Position numbers and translations under genes: made by a program. Below the pieces are notes generated by a model. That model was not told the origin of the DNA. It did no database searches and worked only from the letters and a program-made list of their open reading frames with translations. Shown here piece after piece: positions 10,887 to 56,362 of a DNA stretch of 64,000 bases (its first letter is position 1; every line of letters begins with the position of its first letter). The DNA comes from an uncultured Bacteroidota bacterium (GTDB taxonomy: Bacteria; Bacteroidota; Bacteroidia; Bacteroidales; P3): positions 186,001 through 250,000 of the forward strand of contig CACYSB010000005.1 in NCBI GenBank assembly GCA_902777005.1, written 5' to 3'.

Positions 10887-11009
10887 TCGTACCCTCTCCG
10901 TACCCTCTCCGACTGTTCACCGGTTGTTCACCGGTTGTTCTACGATTTAAACCGTTAAACAACCGGTGAACAACCGTGAAAAAGACGGAGAGGGGTCGGA
11001 GAGAATACG
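10887..11009 (+). repeat. 11-bp-phased palindromic array, copy B
   Basis: NCG triplets recur at 10887, 10898, 10909, 10920, 10931, 10942, then after one 10-base step at 10952, 10963, 10974, 10985, 10996, 11007. The central arms 10921-10939 and 10958-10976 are a perfect 19-bp inverted repeat. The array fills most of the gap between the thrS promoter and the tRNA-Val terminator. Confidence 0.88.
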
Positions 11010-39057: not shown

Positions 39058-39116
39058 TAATCATGAATGAAATAAAGCTTAGGCTTTAAGTACGAAATAG
39101 AAAACACATATTGGAT

Positions 39117-40091
39117 ATGAAGAAGATACTGTTGATACTGATGGCCTGTCTGCTTGTGGTCGGCACTGTCGACGCGCAAGGCAAAAAGGGCAAGGGCAAG
39201 AAGGGTGAATCGCCTGTGGTAGAGGGTAAACAGAAGGTTCGCGAGAGCGACTACCAGACCTACGACCGCTTCACGCAGTTCTCCACCAAGGACATGGGGC
39301 GCTACTTTACGTCCTTTGACTATTCGAAGATATGCGATGAGACTACCGATCACGTGCCGTCGGCCGTGAGACGGGCCGCAGGTGCTTTTATCCCCAAGCA
39401 TGAGGCCGACTGGGGCGATCTGAAGCCTGTGATGAACTATCTGGAGAATGTGTCGCGCGCCACGCTAACTATGTGTGCCATCTACGCCGTCAACCCCAGC
39501 ATCGAGGACACCAAGGAGCAAAAGCGTATTGCCGCCGAAGGCCGCCAAGAGGCTCTGGAGGCTCTGGAGTGCTTCGAGGCGTGGAAGGTGAGTCAGGGCT
39601 GGCGCAACAAGATACAGTACAAGGTGGCCGAGATTGACTACCGCTACTTTAAGGGTGCCTATTTCGACGAGGCCACCTGCACCGATGAGTTGATACATGT
39701 GGGCATCATGCTCTACTTCGGCACCAAGAAGAAAGCTATGTTCGACCCGGACACGACTACGCGTACCTTCTCGGATATCAAGTTCTTCCCTCATGACGCC
39801 ACCATCGTTGACTCGTGGAATGTGCAGCTTGACGAGATGAGTGACTACCTGAAAGAGAACGACCGCAAGGGTCTGCTTCTCATCGGCCACAGTGACAACC
39901 AGGGCACCGAGGCCTATGTGATTGGTCTCTCGCGCCAGCGCGCCGTGGAGGTGAAGAAAGCCCTTGTGGCTCGCGGCGTCGATGGCTCGCGCATCGAGGT
40001 TGAGGCCCACGGGGCAGAGGAGCCCATAGGCGACAACTCCACCTACGAGGGACGCGTGATGAACAACCGCGTGAGTATCAAGATACAGTAA
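39117..40091 (+). CDS. OmpA family lipoprotein-like outer-membrane protein
   Basis: A 324-residue exported protein: signal peptide (residues 1-20, ending DAQ) and a very basic GKKGKGKKG stretch, a helical middle region of about 180 residues, then a C-terminal OmpA peptidoglycan-binding domain (IKFFPHDATIVDSWN, IGHSDNQGTEAYVIGLSRQRAVEVKKALVARGVDGSRIEVEAHG with Asp and Arg ligands for diaminopimelate). It should anchor the envelope to peptidoglycan. The ATG at 39117 is preferred to a TTG six bases upstream. A heptamer array begins right after its stop. Confidence 0.88.
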   Translation: MKKILLILMACLLVVGTVDAQGKKGKGKKGESPVVEGKQKVRESDYQTYDRFTQFSTKDMGRYFTSFDYSKICDETTDHVPSAVRRAAGAFIPKHEADWGDLKPVMNYLENVSRATLTMCAIYAVNPSIEDTKEQKRIAAEGRQEALEALECFEAWKVSQGWRNKIQYKVAEIDYRYFKGAYFDEATCTDELIHVGIMLYFGTKKKAMFDPDTTTRTFSDIKFFPHDATIVDSWNVQLDEMSDYLKENDRKGLLLIGHSDNQGTEAYVIGLSRQRAVEVKKALVARGVDGSRIEVEAHGAEEPIGDNSTYEGRVMNNRVSIKIQ

Positions 40092-40092
40092 A

Positions 40093-40225
40093 GGTTACAG
40101 GTTACGGGTTACAGGTTAAGGGTTAAGGGTTACAGGTTACGGGTTAAGGGTTAAGGGTTACAGGTTACGGGTTAAAGGTTACGGGTTACAGGTTACGGGT
40201 TACAGGTTACGGGTTACAGGTTAAG
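40093..40225 (+). repeat. Heptamer array GGTTACR, 19 units
   Basis: 19 consecutive seven-base units (GGTTACA, GGTTACG, GGTTAAG, one GGTTAAA) without interruption. It begins 1 base after the ompA-like stop codon and ends 7 bases before the TTG start of the next gene, filling the gap. Confidence 0.92.
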
Positions 40226-40232
40226 GTGGAAT

Positions 40233-41141
40233 TTGGATAACAGGGAGAAATATAAACAGTTGTGTGAGACAGAGGGGGCACGTATCCCTCTGTTTCTGCA
40301 ATATTGGTGGTGGGAGGCTGTCTGCCGCGGCAAGCGGTGGGACGTGCTGTTCTGTGAACGCGACGGAGTGGTTCGCGGGGCTATGCCATACATTGACGGC
40401 CGCCGTTTATGCCTGCGCCATTCGCTCATGCCCCAACTCACCATGTTCACAGGTCCTTGGCTTGCCGACACCACAGAAAAGGAGGCCTTCGGCGACCTGT
40501 GGCGGCAGTTTATGTCGCACCGTTGGGCGCTCTGCAAAGGACGCCTGTCGCCCGAGCTTACGGCAGCGGGGCATGTCCCGCCCAAGGGGTTGGGGCTCAA
40601 GACAGAGATGCACTACACCTATCGTTTTGATCCCATACGTCCGCTGTCAGAGCTGATGGCCGGTGCCTCGCAACTGCGTCGACGCGACTACCGTCGGCTG
40701 TGCGACGTGTTGAGTGTCGACGAGACCGTGAGTCCGCGGGAGTTTGCCGACCTGCATGTAGCATACATGGAGCGGAATGGAGGGCGTGACCTGTTGGAAC
40801 ACAGCCTGATAGTGCATGTCTGCTCCGAGGCAGTCGCGCATGGCAGCGGCATGGTTGTCGGCGCGCGCGACACAGAAGGTACGCTGCATGCCGCTGTGTT
40901 TGTGGCCTATGACACTAAATGCGCATACCTGCTGATGCTTGCGCGCAGTGCCGATGCACCTCGCAACGCCATGAGTTTCCTAATCTGGCGTACCATTGAG
41001 ATTATGGCGTCGCGCACAAAGGTGTTTGACTTCGAGGGCAGCATGGAGCCGGGGGTGGAAGAATATTACCGTTCTTTTGGCCCGCAGAAAGTCAATATGC
41101 TGCAGCTGAGTCGCTGCTGGGTACCATTCATGAAGATATGA
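40233..41141 (+). CDS. FemAB/GNAT-fold acyltransferase-like protein
   Basis: A 302-residue protein of the FemAB/BioF2-like acyltransferase superfamily: N-terminal KYKQLCETEGARIPLFLQYWWWEAVC, the C-terminal HAAVFVAYDTKCAYLLMLARSADAPRNAMSFLIWRTIEIM and VFDFEGSMEPGVEEYYRSFG (peptide-GNAT hallmarks: FEGS and FG end). It probably transfers an amino acid or acyl group from a charged tRNA or CoA onto a cell-wall or polysaccharide precursor. No ATG exists near; start is TTG with GGTGG ten bases upstream. Overlaps rlmH by 4 bases. Confidence 0.85.
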   Translation: MDNREKYKQLCETEGARIPLFLQYWWWEAVCRGKRWDVLFCERDGVVRGAMPYIDGRRLCLRHSLMPQLTMFTGPWLADTTEKEAFGDLWRQFMSHRWALCKGRLSPELTAAGHVPPKGLGLKTEMHYTYRFDPIRPLSELMAGASQLRRRDYRRLCDVLSVDETVSPREFADLHVAYMERNGGRDLLEHSLIVHVCSEAVAHGSGMVVGARDTEGTLHAAVFVAYDTKCAYLLMLARSADAPRNAMSFLIWRTIEIMASRTKVFDFEGSMEPGVEEYYRSFGPQKVNMLQLSRCWVPFMKI

Positions 41142-48850: not shown

Positions 48851-48885
48851 CGAAAAAAATAGAAACAGGGAATTATATTTTTTAT

Positions 48886-49031
48886 CCGGCGTCCCTCCGC
48901 CACCGGTCCGGCATCCCTCCGGCCTACCTCCGACAGAAAACCGTAGAACAACCGGTGAACAGTCGGAGCGGAGTCGGAGAGGGGACGGAGAGGAGTCGGA
49001 GAGGCACCGGTGATCCGGCGCCTCCCGTCCG
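48886..49031 (-). repeat. 11-bp-phased palindromic array, copy F
   Basis: NCG triplets at exactly 11-base spacing: 48886, 48897, 48908, 48919, 48930, 48941, 48952, 48963, 48974, 48985, 48996, 49007, 49018, 49029. This is the longest copy, and its strand orientation is opposite to copies A-E. It lies between the btuB promoter and the BspA-like gene. Confidence 0.88.
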
Positions 49032-49048
49032 GCGGGGTATGCCGAGGG

Positions 49049-49092
49049 CCTTTTGAAGGCCTTTTGAAGGCCTATTGAAGACCTATGGAAAG
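49049..49092 (+). repeat. Undecamer array CCTTTTGAAGG
   Basis: Four 11-base units: two identical CCTTTTGAAGG (49049-49070), then diverged CCTATTGAAGA and CCTATGGAAAG. The unit is itself nearly palindromic (CCTT/AAGG). Confidence 0.75.
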
Positions 49093-49190: not shown

Positions 49191-49336
49191 CAGTCACTTT
49201 CGAGAGCGAAAGTTGTAAGCAGAAAAAGCATTGCAATAGTTGCACATAACCTCATGCCTTTTCTTATTGTATAAGGTTAATAAGCATTCCGTTGGAGGGT
49301 CGGAAAAAGGAAGCAATCAACAAAAACATCAATAAT

Positions 49337-52300
49337 ATGAAACAAACCCTTACCCTTTTCGCAAGTTTGCTGCTGGCTTTGGCCATCCCGCACAGCGTTA
49401 AAGCCTATGATTTCAGCTATACCTATCAGGGGAAGACGCTGTACTACACAATCACAGGTAGCAACACTGTATCTGTTGTAAATCCTATTCCTCCTTATTG
49501 GTATGGTTTTACTGGGACAAGACCATCGGGTGACGTTATTATCCCCAGTTCAGTTCAGAACAATTCAACAACCTATACAGTAACCGGAATCGGAGAATAC
49601 GCGTTCAGTTACTGTAGTGTGACGAGTGTCACAATACCAAGTTCTATTACGAGCATCGGTGAGCGTATTTTTTATTCATGTAATAATATAACCACCTTGA
49701 ACTACAATGCAACCAACTGTACATCGCTGCCCTCTAATGAGAATGCTTTCGGCTATTGCCCTAGCCTTACAACAATCAACATAGGTGGCAATGTGACACA
49801 TTTGCCGGACTATCTTTTCTCATGTTGTGAGGGTATTACCAGCATCACTATACCAGCTTCTGTGACAAACATTGGAAATCGTGTCTTCTACGATTGTTCG
49901 GGACTGACAACGGTGTATTTCAACGCCACCAACTGTGCGTCCATGAACGGCACTTCATCTGAATCCGTTTTCTTTGGCTGTCATATAACTACACTCAATA
50001 TTGGCAGCACAGTGGAGCAAATACCTAATAAGGCTTTTAGGAAATGTACTGAACTGACAACGGTGAACTTCAATGCCACCAACTGCACGTCTATGGGTAG
50101 TTGGTCCGATAATGCTGTTTTCTACGATTGCCCCAATCTTGCCACAGTCAATATCGGCAACAATGTAACTCAGCTACCAGCGGATGCGTTCTATAATTGT
50201 ACAGGACTGACATCGGTGTCAATTTCTTCCTCTGTAATAACTAGTATCGGGAATAGTGCTTTTAGAGGATGTAGTAGCCTTACTTCCATAACCATTCCCA
50301 ATTCAATAACCAGCATTTGTGTCAATGCCTTTTATGGTTGTACGAGCTTGATATCCATCACTATTCCGAACTCCGTTACAAGCATTGGCAGTGGCGCCTT
50401 TTACGGCTGTAGTGGTTTGACCTCTGTTACAATCCCGAACTCCGTCACAAGCATTGACCAATCTACCTTCTCCGGCTGTACCGGCTTGACCTCTGTCACC
50501 ATCGGTAACTCCGTCACAAGCATTGGTAGTAGTGCCTTCCAAGGATGTACCGGCTTGACCTCAGTCACCATCCCGAACTCCGTCACAAGCATTGGTAGTA
50601 GTGCCTTCCAAGGATGTACCGGCTTGACCTCAGTCACCATCCCGAACTCCGTCACAAGCATTGGTAGTAATGCCTTCCGCGGCTGTCCCGGCCTGACATC
50701 GGTGACAATTCCTAATTCCGTAACATCCATCGGACAACGTGCTTTCTCTGAATGCAGTGGCCTGATATCCGTCACCATCCCCAACTCGGTGACATCCATT
50801 AGCAACTACACTTTCTATGGTTGCAGCAGCTTGACCTCCGTCACCATCCCCGACGGCGTCACCTCGATAGGCAATGAGGCTTTCTATAATTGCAGCGGCC
50901 TTGATACAGTATATATGAAGTCTGAAATAGCGCCATCTCTCGGCTCCAATTGCTTTTCCTACAATGCCACCGGCCGTGTCTTTATGATTCCCTGTGGAAG
51001 CTACGATTCTTATTATAATAAAAGCCAGTGGTCTGCCTATAGGAATTATTTGCGTGAACCTGTGGTGGATTTATCAATCAGCGTTGCTTCCAGTAGTCCT
51101 TATTATGGCTCAGCGAGCGTGGTGCCATTTAGAGGCAACAATGTCCATTGCGATTCTACAACAATTGTTTATGCCACAGCTGATGAACACTGCGTTTTTG
51201 ACCATTGGAGCAATGGCAACACAGCCAACCCCGACACCCTGCATTTGACCGGCGACAGCACTGTTACGGCAGTCTTTATCCCCAACCAATACACAGTGAC
51301 AGGTGTGGCCTCGGACAACATAAAAGGTACGGTATATGGCAGTGCAACGGTGTACTACCTTGACACTGTAACCTTGACTGCCACTGCAAACTACGGCTAT
51401 CATTATACAGGATGGAATGACAATAACAATGACAACCCGAGACGTGTGGTTGCCACTGGCAATATCACGCTGTCAGCTCTGTTTGATTACAATCAATATA
51501 GCATTACAGTGCAAGCCGACACCTCAATACACGGTAATTGCGCGGGCGGCGGAAGTTACAACTATCTGTCGGAACGCACTATCACAGCAACGGCCAACTA
51601 TGGCTACCACTTCACACAATGGAATGACGGCAACACAGATAACCCTCGTGTCATCACGCTTACCAAGGATACTGCCTTTATCGCACTATTCGCAAAAAAC
51701 CAGTATATTGTAAATGGATTGGCAAATTATGACACCAGAGGCTCCGTGTTAGGCAGCGACACTGTGGATTACCTCGATACGGTAACCTTGACAGCTATGG
51801 CCAACTATGGTTATCATTTTGTAAAATGGAACGACAACAATACACATAATCCCCGTCGCATTGCTGCAACAGGTAATATCACAAAAACTGCCATTTTCGA
51901 ATATAACAAATATAGTCTCACGGTGCAGGCCGACATATCCATTCATGGTACTTGTACGGGTAGCGGAAACTACAACTATCTGTCGGAACGCACTATCAGT
52001 GCCACAGCAAACTATGGCTACCACTTCTCGCAGTGGGACGACGGCAACACCGACAATCCCCGTACCATCACGCTGACGCAGGACACCACGTTTATTGCGA
52101 GCTTTGCACCGAACCAATACACGCTGACTGTGACGGCTGGCGAGCACGGCACGGCCAGCGGAAGCGGTAGCTACGACTATGGCGACACCATCATGATTCA
52201 GGCCTATCCAGAAGCACACTACCACTTCATACGCTGGAACGACGGCAATGCTGACAACCCACGGCAATATCGTGTGGGGGGGGACATAACGCTGACGGCA

Positions 52301-53185
52301 TTCTTCGCCATCGATACGTATACGGTGAATGTTGTGCCAAGTGATCCTGTCCGCGGTATGGTTACGCAAAGCGGCACAGAGTTTGAATATTTATCACCTT
52401 GTACCGTCGAAGCAACAGCATATACGGGTTACATGTTTGCAGGCTGGAGCAACGGCGTGACATCCAATCCCTATACCTTCGCAGTACAGAGTGACGTTGA
52501 GTTGACAGCCATCTTTGTGGCCGAAGGTGAGGAGGTATACACAGTGACTGTGGTTAGTGCAGACCCGACGATGGGAACGGTCAGTGGGGGAGGACAGGCA
52601 TTGAGTGGTGGCACTGTGACCTTTAGCGCCACACCTAACGAGGGGTACCGCTTCCTTTATTGGAACGACGGCAACACTGAGAATCCGCGCACGGTGACCG
52701 TGACAGCAAACGCCACATATACGGCAACATTCGAGGCGATAGCGCCGACGCAGTACACCATCACTGTGATGAGCAACAACGATGCCTGGGGCACTGTGAG
52801 TGGTGGCGGCATCTACAATGAAGGCACCGAAGTGAATATTGTTGCCACACCTGCCGACGGCTATCGTTTTGTTAGGTGGAATGACGGCAACACTCAGAAC
52901 CCGCTTAGTATCACTGTGACAAGCAATGCTACATATATAGCTACCTTTGAGGAGAATGGTGGTACCGAGGGTATCGATGAGGCCGACGGCCAAAGCGTAA
53001 CAATCTATGCATCCGAAGGCCGCATACATGTCTATGCTGCACAGCCTACCGAGGCCGCTATCTATGACATGATTGGTCGCCATGTGGCCACCGTGGCTAC
53101 TGGTGCCAGTACACCGATGCCTGCAGGCGTCTACTTGGTCAAGGTGGGCACGCTGCCCGCACGCAAGGTGGTGGTGATTAAATAG
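49337..53185 (+). CDS. Giant BspA-like surface protein with LRR and nine InlB-type repeats
   Basis: A 1282-residue secreted protein: signal peptide (ending VKA), N-terminal YYTITGSNTV block shared with the LRR protein at 2.4 kb, about a dozen LRR_5 repeats of 23 residues (GLTSVTIPNSVTSIG...) to about residue 540, then nine repeats of about 70 residues with GYHxxxWNDGNxxNPR cores (Flg_new/InlB B-repeat-like), and a C-terminal region (IYDMIGRHVATV ... AGVYLVKVG) like a type IX sorting domain. Likely adhesin or host-binding protein. Start chosen at the ATG at 49337, before the signal peptide. Tandem 69-bp DNA repeats suggest copy-number change. Confidence 0.9.
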   Translation: MKQTLTLFASLLLALAIPHSVKAYDFSYTYQGKTLYYTITGSNTVSVVNPIPPYWYGFTGTRPSGDVIIPSSVQNNSTTYTVTGIGEYAFSYCSVTSVTIPSSITSIGERIFYSCNNITTLNYNATNCTSLPSNENAFGYCPSLTTINIGGNVTHLPDYLFSCCEGITSITIPASVTNIGNRVFYDCSGLTTVYFNATNCASMNGTSSESVFFGCHITTLNIGSTVEQIPNKAFRKCTELTTVNFNATNCTSMGSWSDNAVFYDCPNLATVNIGNNVTQLPADAFYNCTGLTSVSISSSVITSIGNSAFRGCSSLTSITIPNSITSICVNAFYGCTSLISITIPNSVTSIGSGAFYGCSGLTSVTIPNSVTSIDQSTFSGCTGLTSVTIGNSVTSIGSSAFQGCTGLTSVTIPNSVTSIGSSAFQGCTGLTSVTIPNSVTSIGSNAFRGCPGLTSVTIPNSVTSIGQRAFSECSGLISVTIPNSVTSISNYTFYGCSSLTSVTIPDGVTSIGNEAFYNCSGLDTVYMKSEIAPSLGSNCFSYNATGRVFMIPCGSYDSYYNKSQWSAYRNYLREPVVDLSISVASSSPYYGSASVVPFRGNNVHCDSTTIVYATADEHCVFDHWSNGNTANPDTLHLTGDSTVTAVFIPNQYTVTGVASDNIKGTVYGSATVYYLDTVTLTATANYGYHYTGWNDNNNDNPRRVVATGNITLSALFDYNQYSITVQADTSIHGNCAGGGSYNYLSERTITATANYGYHFTQWNDGNTDNPRVITLTKDTAFIALFAKNQYIVNGLANYDTRGSVLGSDTVDYLDTVTLTAMANYGYHFVKWNDNNTHNPRRIAATGNITKTAIFEYNKYSLTVQADISIHGTCTGSGNYNYLSERTISATANYGYHFSQWDDGNTDNPRTITLTQDTTFIASFAPNQYTLTVTAGEHGTASGSGSYDYGDTIMIQAYPEAHYHFIRWNDGNADNPRQYRVGGDITLTAFFAIDTYTVNVVPSDPVRGMVTQSGTEFEYLSPCTVEATAYTGYMFAGWSNGVTSNPYTFAVQSDVELTAIFVAEGEEVYTVTVVSADPTMGTVSGGGQALSGGTVTFSATPNEGYRFLYWNDGNTENPRTVTVTANATYTATFEAIAPTQYTITVMSNNDAWGTVSGGGIYNEGTEVNIVATPADGYRFVRWNDGNTQNPLSITVTSNATYIATFEENGGTEGIDEADGQSVTIYASEGRIHVYAAQPTEAAIYDMIGRHVATVATGASTPMPAGVYLVKVGTLPARKVVVIK
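50507..50644 (+). repeat. 69-bp tandem DNA repeat in the LRR region
   Basis: Two adjacent, base-for-base identical 69-bp units (50507-50575 and 50576-50644) encode 23-residue LRRs; similar but diverged units continue on both sides, as from recent recombination. Confidence 0.85.
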
Positions 53186-54643: not shown

Positions 54644-54646
54644 AGA

Positions 54647-54688
54647 GGGTAGTGGACAGTGGGTAGTGGGTAGTGTGTAGTGGACAGT
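54647..54688 (+). repeat. Heptamer array GGGTAGT, 6 units
   Basis: GGGTAGT, GGACAGT, GGGTAGT, GGGTAGT, GTGTAGT, GGACAGT. The last T is the first base (plus-strand order) of the ftsY stop codon, and the other end is 3 bases from the rimO ATG, so the array fills the whole gap. Confidence 0.85.
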
Positions 54689-55647
54689 TATTCGAAAAGA
54701 GAGTCCACGAATTCGTCGGGGTTGAAGATCTGGAGGTCGGTCATTTTCTCGCCGAGGCCGATGTAGCGCACAGGGACCTTGAACTGGTCGCTGATGCCAA
54801 TGATTACGCCGCCCTTGGCGGTGCCGTCGAGTTTGGTGAGGGCAAGGGCGTTGACATCGGTTGCGGCAGTGAACTGGCGGGCCTGCTCGACGGCGTTCTG
54901 GCCGGTGGAGGCGTCAAGGACAAGGAGAGTCTCTTGAGGTGCGTCGGGGACGAGCTTCTGCATGACGCGGCGTATCTTGGTGAGCTCGTTCATGAGTCCC
55001 ACCTTGTTGTGCAGGCGGCCTGCGGTGTCGATGATGACGATGTCGGAGCCTTTGGCGAGGGCGCTCTGCAGGGTGTCGTAGGCCACAGAGGCAGGGTCGG
55101 CGTTCATGCCCTGCTGCACGATAGGTACATCCACGCGTTCGGCCCACAGCATGAGCTGTTCGACGGCGGCGGCGCGGAAAGTGTCGGCGGCGCCGAGCAT
55201 GACGTTGCGTCCAGCCTGTTTGTAGCGATAGGCGAGCTTGGCGATGGTGGTGGTCTTGCCTACGCCGTTGACGCCCACGACGAGTATTACGTAGGGCTTG
55301 CATGGCAGTGGCGCATCGAATGTGGCGGGCATATTGTCCAGCGGACGTCGCAGCAGTTGTGCTATCTCGGCGCGAAGGATGGCGTTGAGCTCGGAGGTTG
55401 AGATATATTTGTCGCGCCGTATGCGGTCTTGCAGTTTATCAATCACCTTGAGGGTTGTGTCGACACCAACATCAGAGGTGATAAGAGTTTCCTCGAGGTT
55501 GTCGAGGACATCGTCGTCGACAGTGCTTTTGCCGAGGATGCTCTTGGTGAGTTTCTGGAAGAAGCTCTCTTTAGTCTTGGCAAGACCGTTGTCGAGGGTC
55601 TGTCGTTCGGCGCTTTTGTCTTTACGTGCAAAGTCAAATAGTCCCAT
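54688..55647 (-). CDS. ftsY: Signal recognition particle receptor FtsY
   Basis: A 319-residue SRP GTPase: N domain (four helices, residues 1-100), G domain with GVNGVGKTTT (about 129-138), DTFRAAAVEQL, DTAGR, ALTKLDGTAKGG and the C-terminal GLGEKMTDLQIFNPDEFV. It delivers ribosome-nascent-chain complexes to SecYEG. It lacks the long acidic A domain of the E. coli protein, as in most Bacteroidota. Heptamer arrays lie on both sides. Confidence 0.97.
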   Translation of the reverse strand: MGLFDFARKDKSAERQTLDNGLAKTKESFFQKLTKSILGKSTVDDDVLDNLEETLITSDVGVDTTLKVIDKLQDRIRRDKYISTSELNAILRAEIAQLLRRPLDNMPATFDAPLPCKPYVILVVGVNGVGKTTTIAKLAYRYKQAGRNVMLGAADTFRAAAVEQLMLWAERVDVPIVQQGMNADPASVAYDTLQSALAKGSDIVIIDTAGRLHNKVGLMNELTKIRRVMQKLVPDAPQETLLVLDASTGQNAVEQARQFTAATDVNALALTKLDGTAKGGVIIGISDQFKVPVRYIGLGEKMTDLQIFNPDEFVDSLFE

Positions 55648-55655
55648 TGTGTAAA

Positions 55656-55823
55656 GGTTACGGGTTACAGGTTACGGGTTACAGGTTACGGGTTATAGGT
55701 TACGGGTTACAGGTTACAGGTTACGGGTTACAGGTTACAGGTTACGGGTTACAGGTTACGGGTTACGGGTTACAGGTTACGGGTTACAGGTTACGGGTTA
55801 CGGGTTATGGGTTATGGGTTACG
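55656..55823 (+). repeat. Heptamer array GGTTACR, 24 units
   Basis: 24 uninterrupted seven-base units (GGTTACG, GGTTACA, three GGTTAT-variants) fill the gap: 9 bases from the ftsY ATG, and the next unit GGTTATT contains the thioredoxin-like stop codon. Same unit as at 40.1 kb, but read as its complement in the local mRNA. Confidence 0.92.
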
Positions 55824-55825
55824 GG

Positions 55826-56362
55826 TTATTTGAGGGCTTTCATCATTTCGGGGCGAATCTCGTTGTCGAAGATTTGCATGTATTTGTCGTAAGAGTACTT
55901 GGTGTTGTCGCCCGAGGCGAAGTACCATAATATGGCGGTGAACTCCTTGGGGGGATAGAAGCCGGGGATGACGGTGAGCAGTGTGCCGTCGGCGCGGAAG
56001 ATGGCGAAGGAGGGGAAGCCTAAGCGCTGGCCAAGTGTGGCTTGAGCGAAGATGTGCACCTTGTTCTGTCCGGCAGCTGCTGGAGGATAGACCCGGCCAT
56101 TCCATCGGACCGTTTCGTTGCCTTCGGCGTTGAACTTCACGGGGTAGTAGTATTTGTTCATAATGGAGGCCACCGTGGGGTCGGTGAAGGTCTGACGGTC
56201 CATCTTCTTGCAGTAGCCGCACCAGTTGGTGTAGAAGTCAACGATGTAGAAACGCGAACCAATCTTGGCCTGGGCGGCGTCGGAGATGGTGTGCCAGTTG
56301 ACCTGGGCTGCTGCTGTGCCCACAAGGAGGCTGATGATTGTGATGATGAGGGTCTTTTTCAT
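55826..56362 (-). CDS. Thioredoxin-fold exported protein
   Basis: A 178-residue exported protein: signal peptide (residues 1-19, ending AAA), then a thioredoxin-like fold with YTNWCGYCKKMD (redox pair CxxC, about residue 47) and RLGFPSFAIFRADGT (cis-Pro region). The WCGYCKKMDRQTF pattern is of the DUF255/SoxW-type, so it may reduce periplasmic disulphides or act in cytochrome maturation. In the same direction as ftsY, with the heptamer array between. Confidence 0.87.
   Translation of the reverse strand: MKKTLIITIISLLVGTAAAQVNWHTISDAAQAKIGSRFYIVDFYTNWCGYCKKMDRQTFTDPTVASIMNKYYYPVKFNAEGNETVRWNGRVYPPAAAGQNKVHIFAQATLGQRLGFPSFAIFRADGTLLTVIPGFYPPKEFTAILWYFASGDNTKYSYDKYMQIFDNEIRPEMMKALK

Follow-up and report, generated by a model that had tools for sequence, protein, structure and literature searches.

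The heptanucleotide array upstream of ftsY in an uncultured Bacteroidales bacterium is probably one copy of a dispersed intergenic repeat

Introduction

In one uncultured member of the Bacteroidales (assembly GCA_902777005.1), a seven-letter word repeated in tandem fills nearly the whole gap in front of ftsY, the gene for the SRP receptor GTPase. Does such an array serve the gene beside it, or is it repeat DNA that happens to have settled there? The window, by which is meant the whole stretch of DNA analyzed (64,000 nucleotides of contig CACYSB010000005.1, positions 186,001 to 250,000), carries a second array of the same word. A sequence-only reading of the window held that the two arrays present opposite strands to the mRNA, that the heptamer therefore cannot be a conserved RNA signal, and that it acts, if at all, as DNA. 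The survey described here leads to a different view, in which the arrays resemble repeat DNA that spreads and is for the most part without function, rather than a gene switch.

The two arrays in the window

Read directly, the ftsY array has 24 full units (24 x 7 = 168 nt, 55656-55823, plus strand), of which 21 are GGTTACR and three, starting at 55691, 55803, and 55810, are GGTTATR. The 25th unit, GGTTATT (55824-55830), contains at 55826-55828 the TTA that is the stop codon of the upstream thioredoxin-like ORF (55826-56362, minus strand), and the array as a whole, with this unit counted in part, spans 55656-55828. TRF gives 24.7 copies over the same interval with a score of 255, and the earlier description of 24 units filling the gap, with the neighbor's stop codon in the 25th, is confirmed. 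On the other side lies ftsY (54688-55647, minus strand), with its start codon at 55645-55647; all but 8 nt of the gap belongs to the array, and the motif is antisense to both flanking genes. On the motif strand, the array is immediately preceded by the leader TAAA (55652-55655, plus strand); seen from ftsY, this is a TTTA ahead of the ATG. Chance is excluded as a source of the repeat, since 38 two-unit matches were observed and 0.04 are expected from shuffled sequence.

The companion array of GGTTACR and GGTTAAR units (40092-40227, plus strand; 19.6 copies by TRF) begins right after the TAA stop of the gene upstream (39111-40091, plus strand) and is followed by a gene at 40233-41141 (plus strand), for which a TTG start is proposed. 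Its neighbors are both plus-strand genes, to which it is sense, and those of the ftsY array are both on the minus strand; the two mRNAs do carry opposite strands of the motif. The gap between ftsY and rimO is also filled by an array, although of a different heptamer, GGGTAGT/GGACAGT (54647-54688, also given as 54644-54688, plus strand), so that heptamer arrays flank ftsY on both sides. The family of this last array resembles arrays found in the sister species G023, G008, and G001.

Orientation of the arrays across the genome

The source genome (hereafter G000; 2.30 Mb in 32 contigs, 96% complete) contains 93 three-unit GGTTACR matches, 48 on one strand and 45 on the other, at about 23 places, compared to none for the reversed control pattern. 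These make up about two dozen arrays on both strands, all non-coding once three GGTTATR matches on contig C9, which fall in protein-coding repeats, are excluded. Array length runs from 4 to 41 units, and because the search pattern itself requires about four units, no preference for four is claimed. The genes flanking the arrays are a mixed set, and a 35-bp higher-order repeat can be seen in the array on contig C14. The survey was based on sequence stretches around the arrays, and the genes were called with a home-made hexamer model trained on long ORFs, which may have miscalled some neighbors.

A strict strand preference with transcription, the outcome that would speak against the sequence-only reading, was not found. 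Among arrays of at least four units in G000, 11 are sense and 6 antisense between co-directional genes, with a further 4 between convergent genes and 1 between divergent genes. Adding the arrays that three sister species form from their own heptamers gives 32 sense and 22 antisense (p = 0.22). One gap even holds an array and its inverted copy, facing each other (C10:169109-169200; 3109-3201 of L040), the pair ending in TAAAG...CTTTA; the corresponding gap in the sister measures 3 nt. In RNA form, both strands of the array fold worse than shuffled sequences (z of +3.6 and +2.0). Given both orientations and this poor folding, a strand-specific RNA signal is unlikely, in line with this part of the earlier reading, and RNA structure was rejected as an explanation.

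The strand of the motif agrees with the sign of the local GC skew at 17 of 24 G000 loci (L031-L047) and at 29 of 42 loci in relatives (L263-L302). This is suggestive only of a weak strand bias, due either to replication (the leading strand) or to the coding strand, as the loci are clustered, the windows short, and gene strand a confounder.

The arrays in sister species

Orthologous gaps were located in G019, G008, and G023 by searching with the joined ends of the genes on either side of each array (2925 aa), and most of them are without an array. At the site of the 40.1 kb array, for example, the TAA runs straight into the leader of the next gene in G019, and the gap in G023 is 23 nt long; neither holds an array. 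Similarly, a gap of 75 nt on contig C17 of G000 corresponds to one of 2 nt in a sister, a gap of 111 nt on C10 to one of 3 nt, and where G000 has 124 nt on C14, the sister genes overlap. At several array sites, the sister gap measures only 2-20 nt and contains no seed. In other places something is already there: the gap corresponding to C6:196955 already has TATAAAG in one sister, without an array, and the one corresponding to C6:181930 has a short seed, GTTTACAGGTTACAGTTTAAAG, in G019.

The ftsY gap, flanking a gene found in all 41 of 41 same-genus genomes, is of this second kind. In the nearest sister, G019, it holds AAGGTTTATAGGTTATGG, a short and degenerate array oriented as in G000, and in other species it holds short heptamer runs of other sequences. 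The shared orientation indicates that the antisense placement at ftsY was inherited. From these comparisons, most of the arrays, the one at 40.1 kb among them, are lineage-specific insertions, placed in gaps that hold almost nothing in sister species. The ftsY array would be older, with its units since replaced.

Leader and polarity

The arrays of G000 also have a recognizable beginning. On the motif strand, TAAA stands at the 5' end of 16 of 24 arrays and AAA at 21 of 24, compared to a background for TAAA of 0.9% of positions in intergenic DNA and 22.5% at stop codons. Each of the six antisense arrays has the leader too, and there TAAA is no stop codon. Trailing GA is seen in 9 of 24 arrays. 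Beyond the leader, no common flank, and so no longer shared element, was found around the G000 arrays. The sister G007, whose units are AGTTAWG, has its own leader: in 18 of 23 arrays, a C precedes AGTTA. The GGTTACR arrays of other phyla do not have the TAAA leader.

A gene lies within 12 nt of the 5' end of the motif in 17 of 22 arrays and of the 3' end in 8 of 22. Closeness to the gene on the 5' side of the motif strand is a tendency only: by sign test, arrays are nearer to the 5' than to the 3' neighbor by 14 to 6 in G000 (p = 0.12) and by 42 to 24 over four species (p = 0.036). Since short ancestral gaps would by themselves place any insertion near a gene edge, the leader is stronger evidence of polarity than the distances. 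Together, polarity and leader point to a polar copying process primed by microhomology.

Dispersal from a probable common source

Successive units in the G000 arrays tend to alternate between A and G in the last position. This is the case for 123 of 178 pairs of neighboring units, where 88.9 are expected and the maximum over 2000 within-array unit shuffles was 112. Some two dozen sites share the resulting 14-bp pattern, GGTTACAGGTTACG, which stands in either orientation. At least 115 stretches with four-unit GGTTACR arrays were found outside the genus, spread over many phyla, and in other phyla the arrays are mostly monomorphic (67 of 83, as against 1 of 20 in G000). An alternation shared by so many sites, in contrast to arrays elsewhere, argues for one source over separate seeds, and the G000 arrays look as if they derive from it together.

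The explanation that we favor, and consider probable, treats the ftsY array as a single copy of a dispersed heptanucleotide tandem repeat, which has spread over the intergenic gaps of this species and has no strand-specific function. In the proposed mechanism, the 3' end of a nascent DNA strand ending in TAAA or TAAAG beside a stop or start codon would switch by microhomology onto an existing array, copy some units, and then return to its original site. The leader fits such priming, because TAAAG occurs within the variant unit GGTTAAAGG. Arrays could then grow by slippage of at least two units (14 bp or more). At ftsY, an older array would already have been present, and its units would have been swapped for the current heptamer of the species. 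Array DNA would be tolerated because it lies outside coding sequence, and if ftsY expression were affected at all, this would be incidental. Of course, neutral arrays should also be lost, yet some, including the one at ftsY, are found in the same place in several species, which could reflect tolerance or use. The fixed leader and the GA trailer could also mark a discrete mobile element instead.

Other explanations

The standard account of long simple sequence repeats (LSSRs) with units of 5-11 bp is replication slippage that starts independently at every site from a short local seed, without any transfer from one site to another. It has in its favor that GGTTACR arrays arise repeatedly in unrelated phyla, that 7-bp units are reportedly the commonest long class in most genomes (Mrazek 2007 as cited in PMC4679880), and that some sister gaps do hold seeds, as in the cases of GTTTACAGGTTACAGTTTAAAG and the degenerate ftsY array. 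It does not lead one to expect a mixed A/G pattern of 14 bp common to many sites, nor sister gaps of 2-20 nt with no seed at several of them. Independent local expansion alone, in the manner of LSSR5-11, was rejected for these two reasons, and slippage as the general explanation is unlikely, with perhaps a modest chance of being right. A discrete mobile element or an enzyme-driven insertion with defined ends, the leader TAAA and the trailer GA, would account for the recurrence of both ends, for the leader C in G007, and for the heptamers of G102, which lie within a longer dispersed mosaic with 11-bp repeats. Against this idea, array length is not fixed, the G000 arrays share no flank beyond the leader, and neither a reverse transcriptase nor a Y1 transposase accounts for them. 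No match to reverse transcriptase (PF00078) was found in G000, at 96% completeness, or in the array-rich G007, G008, G023, G034, and G086, and a telomerase-like or retroelement origin was rejected on this ground. That the unit agrees with GGTTACA(G), the telomere word of fission yeast, is taken as a coincidence in view of the same result. The Y1 transposase (PF01797) is present in a single copy in G000 and was not found in the array-rich G008, G014, G079, and G086, some of these genomes being incomplete; since the units are also not palindromic, a RAYT/REP or IS200/605 origin was rejected as well. A mobile element of this kind has only a slim chance. We also regard as rather improbable an insertion process that is strand-polar and independent of reverse transcriptase, Y1, and G-quadruplexes, and that writes a species-specific heptamer at gene edges, with a fixed leader (TAAA, or C in a sister), a varying word, and a constant 7-bp step.

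Two further readings would give the array a function. In one, highly unlikely in our view, it is a regulatory or architectural element of the DNA, whose 7-bp period is read by a protein or through helical phasing. A DNA site would be consistent with indifference to orientation and with a position at gene edges, and the earlier reading had pointed to three units per 21 bp, close to two helical turns. That arithmetic works against the idea, however: with three units per two turns, neighboring units are about 240 degrees apart and face different sides of the helix, and only every third is in phase. Nor does action at the DNA level sit well with the genus as a whole, in which there are many 7-bp (and 11-bp) words, with a conserved period and no conserved binding sequence, most orthologous gaps are without an array, length varies from 4 to 41 units, and the flanking genes are mixed. 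The other reading, also highly unlikely, is a G-quadruplex function, as suggested for the GGGAATC repeats of Xanthomonas. Weak quadruplexes of two layers could form from the GG that recurs every seven bases, and a similar polarity toward the 5' gene is described in PMC4692102. The AGTTAWG units of G007, however, contain no GG and are anchored in like manner beside gene edges with a fixed leader, which argues that quadruplexes are not needed.

Known heptanucleotide repeats

The GGTTACR arrays belong with the dispersed heptanucleotide repeats known from Xanthomonas, Nostoc, and the Beggiatoaceae. The STRR heptamers of heterocystous cyanobacteria are also dispersed heptanucleotide tandem repeats and have been used as strain markers; GGTTACR differs from them in sequence and in phylum. 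The closest description is that of the GGGAATC and GGGGAYT repeats of Xanthomonas and Nostoc, to which no function is assigned, although quadruplexes were considered as a possible role (Rehm et al. 2015, PMC4692102). Like GGTTACR, these are 7-bp intergenic repeats scattered on both strands, roughly equal in sense and antisense between co-directional genes, with the 5' end of the motif near a gene (the stop of a sense gene or the start of an antisense gene) and with occasional inverted pairs. They differ in heptamer and host and in having GGG in place of GG, and the present arrays add units without GG in a sister, a fixed TAAA leader, empty sister sites, and a word that changes among species of one genus. 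The TAACTGA direct repeats of marine Beggiatoaceae, cyanobacteria, and some Bacteroidetes (MacGregor 2015, PMC4679880) likewise form 7-bp intergenic arrays near start and stop codons, with long arrays in some Bacteroidetes and repeat-free gaps in their close relatives. Before start codons, TAACTGA mostly keeps to one direction, and it was interpreted as a possible signal at the RNA level (PMC4679880), whereas GGTTACR has no strict orientation. Tandem 7-bp intergenic repeats in species-specific scattered families, as here, are also described for LSSR5-11 (Mrazek 2007 as cited in PMC4679880) and for prokaryotic satellites (PMC6749651); as far as the accounts consulted go, the shared 14-bp pattern and the polar anchoring are not among their features.

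The work on Xanthomonas and Nostoc left open what causes a heptamer to spread and why it is polar to one side next to genes. In this genus, many closely related species differ in their heptamers and empty sites can be read, which makes a comparison of junctions possible, and it includes a sister with GG-free units that argues against quadruplexes as the cause. The ftsY array itself should not be read as a regulatory element without direct evidence.

Heptamers and other periods in the genus

The exact three-unit GGTTACR pattern was absent from 36 same-genus genomes and 24 genomes of other families. With a looser pattern, (GTTANNN)n, many relatives turn out to have a dominant heptamer of their own, such as AGTTAWG in G007, GGTTAAA in G034, and GGTTATR in G102. 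In about 0.76 Mb around ftsY from 21 species, stretches that were not picked for repeats, the tandem-repeat periods are dominated by 7 (52 cases) and 11 (60 cases); in order-1 random sequence of equal size, period 7 did not occur and period 11 occurred once.

Exact 11-bp tandem repeats are as common as 7-bp ones in the genus. Often they come as adjacent inverted pairs, for example TGTTCTTCGAT beside ATCGAAGAACA, which amount to long hairpins with periodic arms. Examples of 11-bp repeats lie in the window at 10888-10980 and 48885-49090 and in G029 at 13272-13375 of L250. In the longer mosaic of G102 (L285, L286, L287, L290-L292, and L295), (GGTTATR)4 is found together with the 11-bp repeat TGACACGGAGT and AATTGAG repeats. 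The window also holds a coding tandem repeat of 69 bp (50349-50794), inside a large ORF (49292-53185), which encodes leucine-rich repeats of the type SIGSxAFxGCTGLTSVTIPNSVT.
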